Source: Pleurocapsales cyanobacterium LEGE 06147
Lineage (GTDB): Bacteria; Cyanobacteriota; Cyanobacteriia; Cyanobacteriales; Xenococcaceae
Assembly: GCA_015207585.1 (NCBI GenBank)
Contig: JADEWQ010000045.1
Coordinates: 1 to 43,131 of the forward strand
Reading direction: 5' to 3'
Length of the DNA: 43,131 bases
A program made the position numbers and the translations under genes. Below the pieces are notes generated by a model. That model did not search any database. It was not told the origin of the DNA and saw nothing but the letters and a program-made list of their open reading frames with translations. Below, in pieces: positions 33,138 to 39,200 of this stretch; within the stretch, counting starts at the first letter, position 1, and every line of letters starts with the position of its first letter.

Positions 33138-33902
33138 ACTCTCGATTCCTTAGATAAAATAAATGGATTTTCCTTAAATAAATATACAAAAGTTTTAGCA
33201 GATGAGCTTGAATTTCCTTTGGTTAAAACTTTAAATTCAACGGCTAGACAAGCTTCAGCGGAACGAGCTTGGGGCTCTATATCAAGATTCTACGAAAACT
33301 GGAAAAAGAAAACAAAAGGTAAAAAAGGTTTTTCCCAAGTTAAAAAATTCTCGAGAAGTGTTGAATATAAAACTTGTGGTTGGAAGTTATCAGAAGATAA
33401 AAAGTATTTAACAATAACCGATAAAACACGAGTTGGTAGATTAAAGTTAGTTGGCTCAATTGATTTAAACTTTTATCAAATCAAGCAAATAAAAAGAATC
33501 AGACTTGTTAAAAAAGCTGATGGATATTACCCTCAGTTTGGTCTAGACCAAGATAGAAAGGAGATTACACCTAAGACAGGGAGTTTACTTGGAATTGATC
33601 TAGGTTTAGAAAGTTTTTTAACTGATAGTAACGGTAAAAAGCTTGAGAATCCTAGATTTTTAAGAAAATCTGAGAAGAGATTTAAAAAACTTCAACGTAG
33701 GTTATCGAAGAAGGTTAAAGGTAGTAACAATCGGAAAAAAGCTCAAAATAGACTAGGTAGAAAGCATTTAAAAGTAAGTCGCCAGCGTAAAGAAGGATTG
33801 AGTATTGCGGGAAGCGCAAGAATTAACGCTCTTGGACAGAATAACCTCTGTGTTGTAAATGAAAGTTTACAAGATAAGTTAGCTGGCAAAAAATCATTAT
33901 AA
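33138..33902 (+). pseudogene. tnpB: Internally deleted tnpB (IS605/IS607-type OrfB)
   Basis: The frame matches TnpB from the middle of its N-terminal domain (LNSTARQASAERAWGSISRFY) through the RuvC-I block GIDLGLESFLTDSNGK, whose first catalytic Asp is kept, to HLKVSRQRKE. There it jumps to the usual extreme C-terminus (INALGQNNLCVVNES). The RuvC-II Glu, the zinc finger with its CxxC pairs and the RuvC-III Asp are absent, and so are about 60 N-terminal residues. A TTG at 33219 could start translation, but homology extends upstream to about 33138. It cannot be an active nuclease. Its end and the 120 bp after it may retain the element end and guide-RNA region. Confidence 0.85.
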
Positions 33903-35417: not shown

Positions 35418-36437
35418 TTATTTCATCTGCTGTTTCTTTTCTTTTTTTAAATCTCGGGTTTCTACAGCAGCAAGTTCTGCATCCATTAAAGTTTGTCCCG
35501 TAGCTGCCAGATAGACATCATCTAGACTAGGACGAGATTGAGCGAGGCTGAAGGTAGGCAAACCTATTTCTGCTAAAGATTGTTCGATTTTACTCAAGGA
35601 GTTGTTGCCTGGTTTGACTATGAGGTTGAGAGAGTTGCCTTGAGCGGTGTTGATAATTACTTCTTCTACAAAAGGAAGGGATTGCAATATATCTTTTGCT
35701 TTCTCGGCTTCTTCAACAGGAGTAAATTCACGGATGCGCAGAGTTACGCGATCGCCACCTATTTTATCTTTTAATTGGGAAGGAGTACCCTCATCTATAA
35801 CGACTCCCCTATTAATAATTGCCAGGCGATCGGCTAAAGCATCAATTTCTTCTAAATAGTGACTGGTAATAAGAACCGTCGTTCCTGATGCTTTTAGTTT
35901 CCTTAAAAAATCCCAGACTACGATCCGAGTTTCGATATCTAAGCCTGCAGTCGGTTCATCTAAAATTAGTAACTCCGGTTGATGTAGTAATCCTGCCGCT
36001 AAGTCCAAGCGCTTGCGGATACCACCAGAATAAGTACCGGTTTTTTTATCGGCGTAGTCTGTTAACCCTAACAGTTGCAGTAATTGCTTGATTCTTTCTT
36101 TCGCCACCGCTTTAGGAAGATGATATAGTGCAGCTTGCAGTTGCAATAATTCTCTTCCTGTCAATACTTTATCTATCGCTACTTCTTGTGCTACATAACC
36201 CAGCCTGCGTCGCACCTCTTTTGGACGATCGACGACAGAAATACCACTAACTTCAATTTTGCCCCCATCAGGTTTAGCAAGGGTACACAAGCAACGAATA
36301 GTAGTTGTTTTTCCCGCACCATTAGGACCGAGTAAACCAAAAATTTCTCCTGGTTGTACAGTAAAGGAGATGTCTTTTACCGCTTGGACATCGCCATAGC
36401 TTTTTTGCAGATTTTTAATTAAAACGGCAGCAGCCAT
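35418..36437 (-). CDS. ABC transporter ATP-binding protein (DrrA type)
   Basis: A 339-aa cytosolic ATPase that powers the permease encoded next to it. Walker A is GPNGAGKT (residues 37-44), the signature YSGGIRKRLDLA lies near 136, and Walker B with LLILDEPTAGLD follows. The C-terminal about 100 residues, with RPSLDDVYLAATGQTL, are the DrrA-type extension. Start ATG at 36435-36437. First gene of the exporter operon. Confidence 0.92.
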   Translation of the reverse strand: MAAAVLIKNLQKSYGDVQAVKDISFTVQPGEIFGLLGPNGAGKTTTIRCLCTLAKPDGGKIEVSGISVVDRPKEVRRRLGYVAQEVAIDKVLTGRELLQLQAALYHLPKAVAKERIKQLLQLLGLTDYADKKTGTYSGGIRKRLDLAAGLLHQPELLILDEPTAGLDIETRIVVWDFLRKLKASGTTVLITSHYLEEIDALADRLAIINRGVVIDEGTPSQLKDKIGGDRVTLRIREFTPVEEAEKAKDILQSLPFVEEVIINTAQGNSLNLIVKPGNNSLSKIEQSLAEIGLPTFSLAQSRPSLDDVYLAATGQTLMDAELAAVETRDLKKEKKQQMK

Positions 36438-36693
36438 AAATAAAATATGTCTCTACGCTACTTCAAAAGAATAGTCTTTGTTCTACTGATTATTGTAATT
36501 GGTTGGCTTGGAGAGGGTTGCCAGAGTTTGGTAGAATCTCTGTTTAGTTTGAGCAAGACTAAAGATTAATACCAGTCTATGTCTTTATTTTAGGTAGATT
36601 TACTTTCTTGTAGTTAAGTTTCAGAAACAATAGCAGTTTGCCACATTTGAGGTGGCATAATTTTTGTATAATCTGGTTCTCGACAAAATGGAA

Positions 36694-37181
36694 CTACTTC
36701 GGGCTAAGGTATACCAGAAGCCACAAGGCAAAGCGTTCTAGTCCAACCAACAAAGCAGTGATGTCCACAGCCAAACCAAACAAAACTAGGTTGTTTTCAT
36801 TGCCAGCTCTTAAAGCAAAGCTTAAGGATGTGGCAACGGCTGGAGGATGCATAACATCTAACAGGATCATCAGCACGATTGTGATGATCATTGCGGTGCC
36901 ACCAGACACATAACCCGAACTAACAGCATCTATGTTACAAAACCGATCCCCGCTGCCATCATTTGGGAAATGACTAGAGTTCGCACCGTATTTGTACCGT
37001 GCTGGGGATCGAGATAAATGAGAAAGGCACTAGAGGCAAGAGACGCAAACAACAAACGCTGACGGGTTAGTACCTCCACTAGGGCAAACACGCTCAATAT
37101 GACCACTGTTGGGGCAGTGGGTAATGCTATACTCACCCTTCCAATTGAGGCACTGCGGAGCGAGCTATTCGTACCTCTCAA
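36694..37181 (-). pseudogene. HPP-family membrane protein, frameshifted
   Basis: Two minus-strand frames together make one HPP protein. The first (37181-36930) reads ASSAFLIYLDPQHGTNTVR ... MMAAGIGFVT and hits a stop; the second continues VSGGTAMIITIVLMILLDVMHPPAVATSLSFAL to 36694. Losing one base near 36928-36933 explains the break: with it restored the frame reads through a Gly-Tyr-Val-Ser-Gly-Gly junction. HPP proteins have about four membrane helices and in cyanobacteria have been linked to nitrite transport. Whether the break is a real mutation or a sequencing error cannot be told here. The N-terminus is also poorly matched. Confidence 0.8.
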
Positions 37182-37416
37182 AGGTTTTAATAAGTGCTAG
37201 AGGAAATAACAAATTAATCAATAAATCCCTTGATGCCTCTGGTTTCATACTTTTCTATTTCAATAATAAAGAGAGACATTGCTTGAGCCAAATGCCTGGA
37301 AACCTGCACACTCGATTCTAAGGGTAGGGCTGTTTCATTTTGTAGTTATCTGGAAAACGTCAGTATAAGTTAGGCGGCAATTCTGGGGTTGCTAAAATAC
37401 AGCAAATTCTTACTAG

Positions 37417-38331
37417 CTATCGGGGTGAACGAAACATACGCCGATAATCCCCAGGTGTCACGTTGACGATTCGCTTGAACAAGCGGCGGAAAAATGACGG
37501 ATCTTCGTACCCAACCTTCCAACTAATCTCATCGATCGCAGTTTCACTGTTTTCTAGGTATTGCTTGGCATTTTCGATGCGAAGGTGTTGAACATACTTG
37601 ATGGGTGTAAAGCCCGTAGCATCTTGAAAGTGGCGTTTGAATGTCCGATCCGTTAAACCTGACTCGTGAATCATGCCAACGACAGGATTAGGGTCTCGCC
37701 AATGCTCCTGCAACCATACTTGGGTTTTGAGGATGGGACTATCTCCACGATCTCTAATGTCCTTGAAAGTTAGATAGGGCGCTTGTCCGTCTGTATGCCA
37801 TTGCAGCATGAAAAACTTGGTCGCCGCCTGTGCCGTCGCTGGTCCAGCGTATCGCGCTATTAGGTACAAAGCTAGATCGTGCCAGGCCGCTGAAGCACCC
37901 GACATGATTAATCGTTCATCATCACCCGTGACAATGAGTTCACGCTCAAGCCTCAGATTGACGTTTGGGAAGTTTTTCTTCAGGGTGTCCTCCAGCACCC
38001 AATGGGTCGTAACATCCTTGCCATCTAAAATCCCGGTTTCAGCCAGCAGGGTGCCCCAGAACACGTTGAACAGAGCGAGGAGCCTTTTGCTATACATTCG
38101 GTTTAACCACTGAGTGACATCGGGGTAGCGTCCTGTTTCCCAGCAAGCATCCCCGACGACTGAAGTAGGAATAATCACCACGTCAGTGGAGGCGATGTTA
38201 ACTCGATTTCGATACTGAGCCAGGAGAGTTTCTGTTACCGAAGCGGGTGTCCACTTTGGGGTGACTGCTTTGTAAACAATTGCATATCCTAGTAAAGGTT
38301 TAAAATTTTGCGTTTTTGGTGACTGTGGCAA
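37417..38331 (-). CDS. GlxA-type AraC-family regulator with a scarred DJ-1/PfpI domain
   Basis: A 304-aa protein: truncated N-terminal DJ-1/PfpI-like domain (about 45-185) and C-terminal AraC HTH pair (about 205-300; GLTDRTFKRHFQDATGFTPIKYV, SWKVGYEDPSFFRRLFKR). The start is TTG at 38329-38331, and the usual first about 60 residues are missing. Residues 81-93 read SKRLLALFNVFWG; the next frame over the same bases encodes AKGSSLCSTCSGA, the expected nucleophile-elbow motif. So one base was gained near 38091 and one lost near 38053, restoring the frame afterwards. DNA binding may survive. The region is G+C-richer than its surroundings. Confidence 0.75.
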   Translation of the reverse strand: MPQSPKTQNFKPLLGYAIVYKAVTPKWTPASVTETLLAQYRNRVNIASTDVVIIPTSVVGDACWETGRYPDVTQWLNRMYSKRLLALFNVFWGTLLAETGILDGKDVTTHWVLEDTLKKNFPNVNLRLERELIVTGDDERLIMSGASAAWHDLALYLIARYAGPATAQAATKFFMLQWHTDGQAPYLTFKDIRDRGDSPILKTQVWLQEHWRDPNPVVGMIHESGLTDRTFKRHFQDATGFTPIKYVQHLRIENAKQYLENSETAIDEISWKVGYEDPSFFRRLFKRIVNVTPGDYRRMFRSPR

Positions 38332-38408
38332 ACCCCTGTCAGATTAAACTACAATCCTTCTGTAATCTAAAAAAAATTAACTTTTCATTGGTAAAACTCT
38401 AATTTTTT

Positions 38409-39200
38409 ATGTGTCGCTTACTGGGCTATATTGGTTCGACCATTCAACTAGATCGATTATTATACAAGCCAAAACACTCTCTCATCGTTCAAAGTTATCA
38501 ACCCCGTGAAATGACTTCGGGGTTACTTAATGCCGATGGTTTTGGTATTGGTTGGTATCATCCAGAGAAAGAGGTATATCCCTACACCTACAAACATACT
38601 TTGCCAATCTGGAGTGATATTAATCTTCCTCAGCTCAGTCGCTATGTGGAAACTCATTGTAGCTTAGGCTATGTTCGCAGTGCTACTCCTGGATTGCCAG
38701 TGGATTTAATTAATTGTCAGCCTTTTACTCGCGAAAATCTCTTATTTATTCACAATGGGTACATCGAGAATTTTCGTCAGAGTTTATATCGACCGATACG
38801 CAATACTTTAAATGACTCTACTTATCAAGCAATTAGCGGTACTACTGACTCTGAACATATTTTTGCTTTGATTATCAATGAGTTACATAAATCTCCCTCT
38901 CCCAATCTCGAACAAGCCTTAGCTAATGCCTTAAGGGAACTAACCAGTTTAGCCCAAACTTATCAAGCTTATTTCTCTGCCAATCTCATTGTCAGTAATG
39001 GTCGCCAATTAGTTGCTTCTCGTTATTCGAGTCAATTCCCAACTCCCTCTCTTTATTGGTTGCGCGACGATCCTATCTATTCCGATTCTGTCATTATTGC
39101 TTCTGAACCTTTATTTGAGGGAAACTGGAAAAGTTGCCCGGAAAAGAGCATTATTAGTGTGGGGGAAGATCTTGAAGTTAACATCGATTCAATCTTGTAG
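38409..39200 (+). CDS. egtC: EgtC-like class II glutamine amidotransferase
   Basis: A 263-aa Ntn-hydrolase. The mature protein begins with Cys2 (MCRLLGYIG), the catalytic nucleophile exposed after Met removal. Supporting blocks are LNADGFGIGWYHPE, YVRSATPGLPVD, FTRENLLFIHNGYIENF and TTDSEHIFALI. In known ergothioneine synthesis EgtC removes glutamate from the gamma-glutamyl-cysteinyl-hercynine sulfoxide made by EgtB. The gene directly after it is egtB, which supports the call over an unrelated amidotransferase. Start ATG at 38409. Confidence 0.85.
   Translation: MCRLLGYIGSTIQLDRLLYKPKHSLIVQSYQPREMTSGLLNADGFGIGWYHPEKEVYPYTYKHTLPIWSDINLPQLSRYVETHCSLGYVRSATPGLPVDLINCQPFTRENLLFIHNGYIENFRQSLYRPIRNTLNDSTYQAISGTTDSEHIFALIINELHKSPSPNLEQALANALRELTSLAQTYQAYFSANLIVSNGRQLVASRYSSQFPTPSLYWLRDDPIYSDSVIIASEPLFEGNWKSCPEKSIISVGEDLEVNIDSIL

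Follow-up and report, generated by a model that had tools for sequence, protein, structure and literature searches.

A decaying, chimeric GlxA-type regulator ORF with its cysteine elbow out of frame, most likely a pseudogene, in Pleurocapsales cyanobacterium LEGE 06147

Regulators that combine a DJ-1/PfpI domain with an AraC-type helix-turn-helix (HTH) are referred to here as GlxA-type, which we take to be the name of this architecture. The closest relative found for the ORF under study is an intact 328-aa copy from Leptolyngbyaceae cyanobacterium M33_DOE_097 (metagenome-assembled genome, DVDV01000136.1; hereafter L021), which has ∼70 residues ahead of the DJ-1 domain strand TDVVI. Structural modeling of L021 and of the ORF was carried out with the same nine sequences as rows. 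The L021 model is confident (mean pLDDT 83.4) and resembles structures of the DJ-1 family (3er6, isocyanide hydratase). It shows a strand at residues 109–113 leading into a helix that starts at residue 114, and C114 occupies the turn between them, the arrangement expected for a nucleophile elbow. Its N-domain aligns with the Pseudomonas isocyanide hydratase/DJ-1 structures 3nor, 3non, and 3er6, and C114 pairs with the Cys of their CSG motif. This residue is presumably the catalytic Cys101 of isocyanide hydratase, consistent with the structure titles naming C101S and C101A. Among NCBIfam models, the best match of the ORF was to the FtrA-like regulators (PRK09393.1; residues 95–302, E 2.3e-40). 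Both the ORF (138.8 bits) and L021 (166.5 bits) score under the cut-off of 425 bits, and hence neither is FtrA by that model. Short stretches read out of frame within an open gene also have a precedent: when Bacillus subtilis 168 was resequenced, a number of the corrections reportedly concerned compensating frameshifts, and better-conserved internal motifs came back once these were mended (PMC2885750). Those cases resemble the present one in the short out-of-frame stretch, the untouched ORF boundaries, and the hidden conserved motif. They were corrected as sequence errors, whereas the gene around the present stretch is truncated and its neighbor is broken. A literature search, judged by title, returned no paper matching a compensatory-frameshift pseudogene of this kind in bacteria.

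The ORF lies in a window of 43,131 nucleotides, the whole stretch of DNA analyzed, at 37417–38331 on the minus strand. It comprises 304 codons from a TTG start at 38331 to a TAG stop, and an in-frame TAA stop precedes it at 38346. Codons 1–18 form a leader (38278–38331), codons 19–43 a segment of other origin (38203–38277), and codons 44–80 the in-frame remainder of the DJ-1/PfpI domain ahead of the shifted stretch (38092–38202). Codons 81–93 are out of frame (38053–38091); the frame is regained in codons 94–214, the C-terminal part of the DJ-1/PfpI domain with a linker (37690–38052), and codons 224–298 encode the AraC-type HTH (37438–37662). Homology to L021 extends across codons 40–304 with 74% identity. 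The HTH is intact (PF12833, 80.7 bits, E 1e-22, cut-off 33.6), whereas codons 48–304 scored 17.4 bits with the DJ-1/PfpI model against 40.5 for L021 (cut-off 26.6), and DJ-1_PfpI was absent from the Pfam matches of the whole ORF at E 0.001. An earlier note, made from the letters of the DNA and a list of its ORFs, had described a GlxA-type regulator that retains its DNA-binding domain; both points are borne out, the name itself being that of the note. The ORF thus shares with L021 the C-terminal HTH and the CSTCSG elbow, the latter in a shifted frame, and differs from it in lacking the first 60–70 residues, part of which is replaced by the tail of a plasmid gene, and in having the elbow out of frame. 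The structural model of the ORF is poor and reaches a fair level only in the DNA-binding half, with a mean pLDDT of 56.7, values <50 in residues 1–60, 83–91, 128–150, and 172–195, and the best values in residues 201–250 (78–89; ∼80–90 in 211–240 and 60–79 in 241–300). Compared with the isocyanide hydratase/DJ-1 structures, the ORF is without the first strands, the helix, and the elbow, and a DJ-1-type site is therefore not expected there.

In the annotated frame, codons 81–93 read SKRLLALFNVFWG; shifted to the next frame, these bases give AKGSSLCSTCSGA. The latter matches the elbow of L021, CQGTVLCSTCSGV (wider stretch LYCQGTVLCSTCSGVLLLAETG), so that the claim of odd residues in the annotated frame over a canonical motif in the next proved correct to the residue. 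Alignment to a homologue at the nucleotide level, which the earlier note had proposed as a check, showed that, relative to L021 DNA, the ORF has a surplus base near 38088 and lacks one near 38051, about 37–40 bases apart; these opposite one-base changes agree with its estimate of some 39 bp read out of frame at the cost of the Cys elbow. The alignment also contained gaps upstream of 38200, where homology ends. A further gap pair at ∼37768–37762 was dismissed as an aligner artefact because codons 95–304 compare gap-free at 81% amino-acid identity. In codons 81–94 the annotated frame agreed with L021 at 0 of 14 codons. Over the 10 codons that could be paired in the shifted frame, the differences numbered 2, 1, and 7 at the first, second, and third positions, which is, to judge by their distribution, the coding pattern of the shifted frame. 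In a survey of 24 aligned relatives (L034, a repeat of L021, and L031–L033, with the HTH only, were dropped), four rows (L026, L029, L040, and L043) were set aside as broken or truncated; the elbow residue is Cys in 19 of the 20 usable relatives and Gly in L038, as compared with Val in the translated frame of the ORF.

The strength of the shift was compared with a control drawn from 20 stretches of the same genome and the window (410,131 bases), searched against 1,603 ORFs of ≥100 aa from 1.6 Mb of a relative of the same family (G024). Keeping best matches of ≥90 bits and ≥45% identity, one per place, left 52 orthologous stretches with 17,021 codons, each scored by the largest gain from reading any run of 12 codons in another frame. 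The elbow stretch scored 60 (alternative minus annotated frame, against L021), and the control scores had a maximum of 17 and a 99th percentile of 13.4. Inner stops were found in 0/52 stretches and frame changes in 2/52, both in locus L062; one of them falls in a repeat ORF that looks spurious and the other in what resembles a transposase remnant, as judged by eye. Hence, no ordinary gene of the control sample showed a frame change.

The N-terminus had been reported as missing, which is correct but not the whole picture: the first 60–70 residues of the relatives have no detectable counterpart, and some of the space is taken by a piece of another gene. The DNA upstream of TDVVI is unlike the N-terminal DNA of L021 (score 11.5, shuffle mean 12.0, equaled in 159 of 300 shuffles), a profile of the relatives' N-termini found only their last part in the window, and a remnant of the true N-terminus was searched for upstream and not found. 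A search of the own genome with 38222–38420 gave matches of 96% (at C230) and 93% (at C22) over 28 bases, close to the 3′ ends of two ORFs (210 and 185 aa, respectively). Codons 19–42, VYKAVTPKWTPASVTETLLAQYRN, share 13 of 24 residues with the tail of this plasmid gene family, VREAVNPKWTPAELADRILSQYRS (tblastn E 5e-05 against the whole window), and the DNA alignment of 38270–38202 to the plasmid-gene tail scored 33.5 against a shuffle maximum of 17.5. The same similarity, spanning PKWTPA...AQYR in the ORF, was seen with at least 16 further members of the family. Since codons 19–42 resemble the C-terminal tail of an unrelated plasmid gene, the ORF is a chimera of a plasmid-type gene tail and, joined to it in frame, a regulator that has lost its N-terminus. 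The junction lies at ∼38214–38196, its exact point being uncertain. Two other interpretations of this DNA were given up: the frame reading KVDTRFGN as a shifted remnant of the regulator, as the same bases are the plasmid-gene tail, and an insertion-sequence terminal repeat at 38247–38268, as the other two copies (C230 and C22) lie inside an ORF.

Of the 27 genomes in the taxonomic family, 13 carry the plasmid gene family, the own genome among them. It was also found on 16 plasmid records, every one from a cyanobacterial genus; 6 of these cover ≥80% of the query and 14 have <60% identity. Pfam gave no match above its cut-offs, and searches of NCBIfam and PHROGs at E 0.01 were likewise negative. 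The C22 copy adjoins a ParA-like gene. Members at L153 (951–1583) and L154 (277–834) belong to this uncharacterized cyanobacterial family with the C-terminal motif PKWTPAELADKILAQYRS, and in one instance a member stands beside a ParA-like gene and is followed by an overlapping P-loop-like ORF.

As to the regulator itself, the own genome is the only one among 27 of the family with a match at E up to 1e-30. In the class, at least 16 of 388 genomes match at E up to 1e-25, own included, with up to six candidates scored per genome. An intact paralogue was not seen in the own genome, where the other 22 matches all fall within residues 189–302. Matches to L021 with <60% identity occur in 2,285 of 72,556 plasmid records, of which 993 cover ≥80% of the query. 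Some relatives are also defective: L040, L043, and L029 are regulator relatives without the N-terminal part, and L026 is interrupted by a stop ahead of the elbow and changes frame close to its end.

The gene that follows the regulator downstream, also on the minus strand, encodes an HPP transmembrane-family protein (36694–37181) and is broken by an in-frame TAG at 36930–36932 with a frame change just after it, as compared with the 190-aa open frame of its relative L050. The HPP fragment was matched in 3 of 80 genomes of the order, own included; the match in genome G302 contains two stops too. Upstream of the regulator, on the other strand, lie homologues of what we take, from their domain pattern, to be egtC and egtB. 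A match to egtC was found in 20 other genomes of the family, and in 19 of these loci (L156–L174, flank ≤1.5 kb) neither the regulator nor the HPP gene was seen beside egtC. The listed start of the egtB-like ORF (39013–39200, plus strand) falls inside egtC; translation probably begins further downstream, because in 14 of the 19 loci from relatives the alignment starts only at residue 36–39. Each of ten large genes scanned elsewhere in the window aligns to almost the full length of a Pfam model and, against this comparison, the broken genes seen lie together. A shortened ORF of the IS605-type OrfB/TnpB kind (227 aa) is present at 33219–33902 on the plus strand; a copy at C192 is 96% identical over residues 1–156 only and, as the identity stops there, the C-terminal part of the ORF may be altered or deleted. 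At 36400–38500 there was no Rfam match at gathering score. Promoter-like matches at 36500–38500 numbered 5, compared with 3.3 ± 2.1 in shuffles, and terminator signals were likewise not above shuffles.

Outside the shifted stretch the regulator has the signature of a constrained gene. The 210 codons 95–304 differ from L021 at 30, 11, and 106 first, second, and third positions (dN ∼0.11, dS ∼1.9) and need no further frame change. With six outgroups, unique changes in these codons numbered 8–12 in the window copy and 7–11 in L021, without a clear excess; at 79 columns invariant in the outgroups there were 4 and 1, respectively, a slight lean. The absence of a clear substitution excess and of any further frame change indicates normal constraint until recently. 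As the rest of the gene keeps a strong coding signature, the lesions would be recent relative to the split from the closest relative, or else the frame changes would be errors.

Taken together, it is probable that the ORF is a chimeric regulator copy in decay, still open through its AraC-type HTH and belonging to an already known type, the GlxA-type regulators. Two lesions against intact relatives were found, two being the least taken to mark a pseudogene: the N-terminal loss with its chimeric start, and the paired frame changes. The replaced N-terminus and the broken neighbor point to a decaying locus rather than to a remodeled regulator. The intact HTH and the lack of a clear substitution excess outside the shifted stretch count against decay. 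It is also conceivable that both frame changes are base-count errors at short runs and that the true elbow is canonical, in which case the truncated chimeric N-terminus would stand. Both sites are at or beside short homopolymer runs (four A; three C near four G), the remainder of the regulator gene evolves normally, and the genome is a draft assembly in 244 contigs; in addition, compensating frameshifts in a reference genome have reportedly been traced to errors (PMC2885750). However, this would take two independent errors within 40 bp, and the control sample showed no frame breaks in ordinary genes, which indirectly makes a pure assembly error, named in the earlier note as what would refute it, unlikely. 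Moreover, the HPP neighbor carries a stop codon and a frame change and the regulator itself is truncated and chimeric, so that a broken gene is to be expected at this place.

A different possibility is that the C-terminal half yields a sensor-less DNA-binding protein maintained by selection, perhaps translated from one of the in-frame ATG codons 79, 143, and 175. It would act like the small single-domain AraC proteins MarA and SoxS. In line with this, the HTH is intact and modeled fairly well in residues 211–300, internal start codons are available, and the normal frame is regained before the shifted frame would reach its next stop, at 38027. Two of the relatives from at least 15 non-own genomes (L040 and L043) are cut at or after the elbow with the HTH half open, and on their account the idea is retained, though at a decidedly low probability. 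Against it stand the broken HPP neighbor, promoter-like matches no more frequent than shuffles give, and the finding that two random opposite indels would also leave such a body open in ∼10–15% of placements. Under free decay an open frame is, by that figure, mildly unexpected, and it is weak evidence for selection, but the case was picked for being open. Also against decay, the lesion occurs in one assembly only. The wider proposal that cyanobacterial GlxA-type regulators repeatedly lose their DJ-1 sensor half with the AraC half left open, and with a plasmid-gene tail captured here as N-terminus and the sensor-less regulator selected, appears quite doubtful. Programmed recoding, in which ribosomes would shift +1 and then −1 to give the canonical elbow from the DNA as assembled, is hardly credible. 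The expected motif is indeed encoded in the shifted frame, but two opposite shifts in 40 bp bring no known gain, no recognizable pair of slip sites was seen by eye, and the N-terminal sensor part is gone regardless. Nor is a need for such a shift conserved: of the 20 relatives whose elbow can be read not one requires it, and the window copy stands alone.

Under decay, the course of events may be pictured as a rearrangement that truncated the N-terminal sensor half and left it preceded by a plasmid-type gene tail; the tail and the truncation are present in the sequence, and the rearrangement is the mechanism that would account for them. A one-base insertion and a one-base deletion ∼40 bp apart would then have swapped the Cys elbow for unrelated residues, this order being a supposition, and in the assembly the frame stays open after the paired indels into the AraC DNA-binding domain. 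The short interval between the ABC-transporter gene and egtC would accordingly be non-functional leftover sequence, an appearance that it owes to the HPP neighbor being broken as well. A working product from the sensor domain is not likely. The earlier reading is therefore supported in part: the frameshifts, the loss of the elbow and of the N-terminus, and the retained HTH stand, and it had missed the chimeric N-terminus with its plasmid-gene tail and the broken HPP neighbor, both of which are new here.

The locus illustrates that a dead sensor site can hide in an open, well-annotated frame, where it is visible only by frame-aware comparison, and it calls for caution in that altered active sites in single draft genomes are not to be taken as new biology. 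It is an example of a scrap of a plasmid gene turned into the apparent start of an ORF, and otherwise of ordinary biology.
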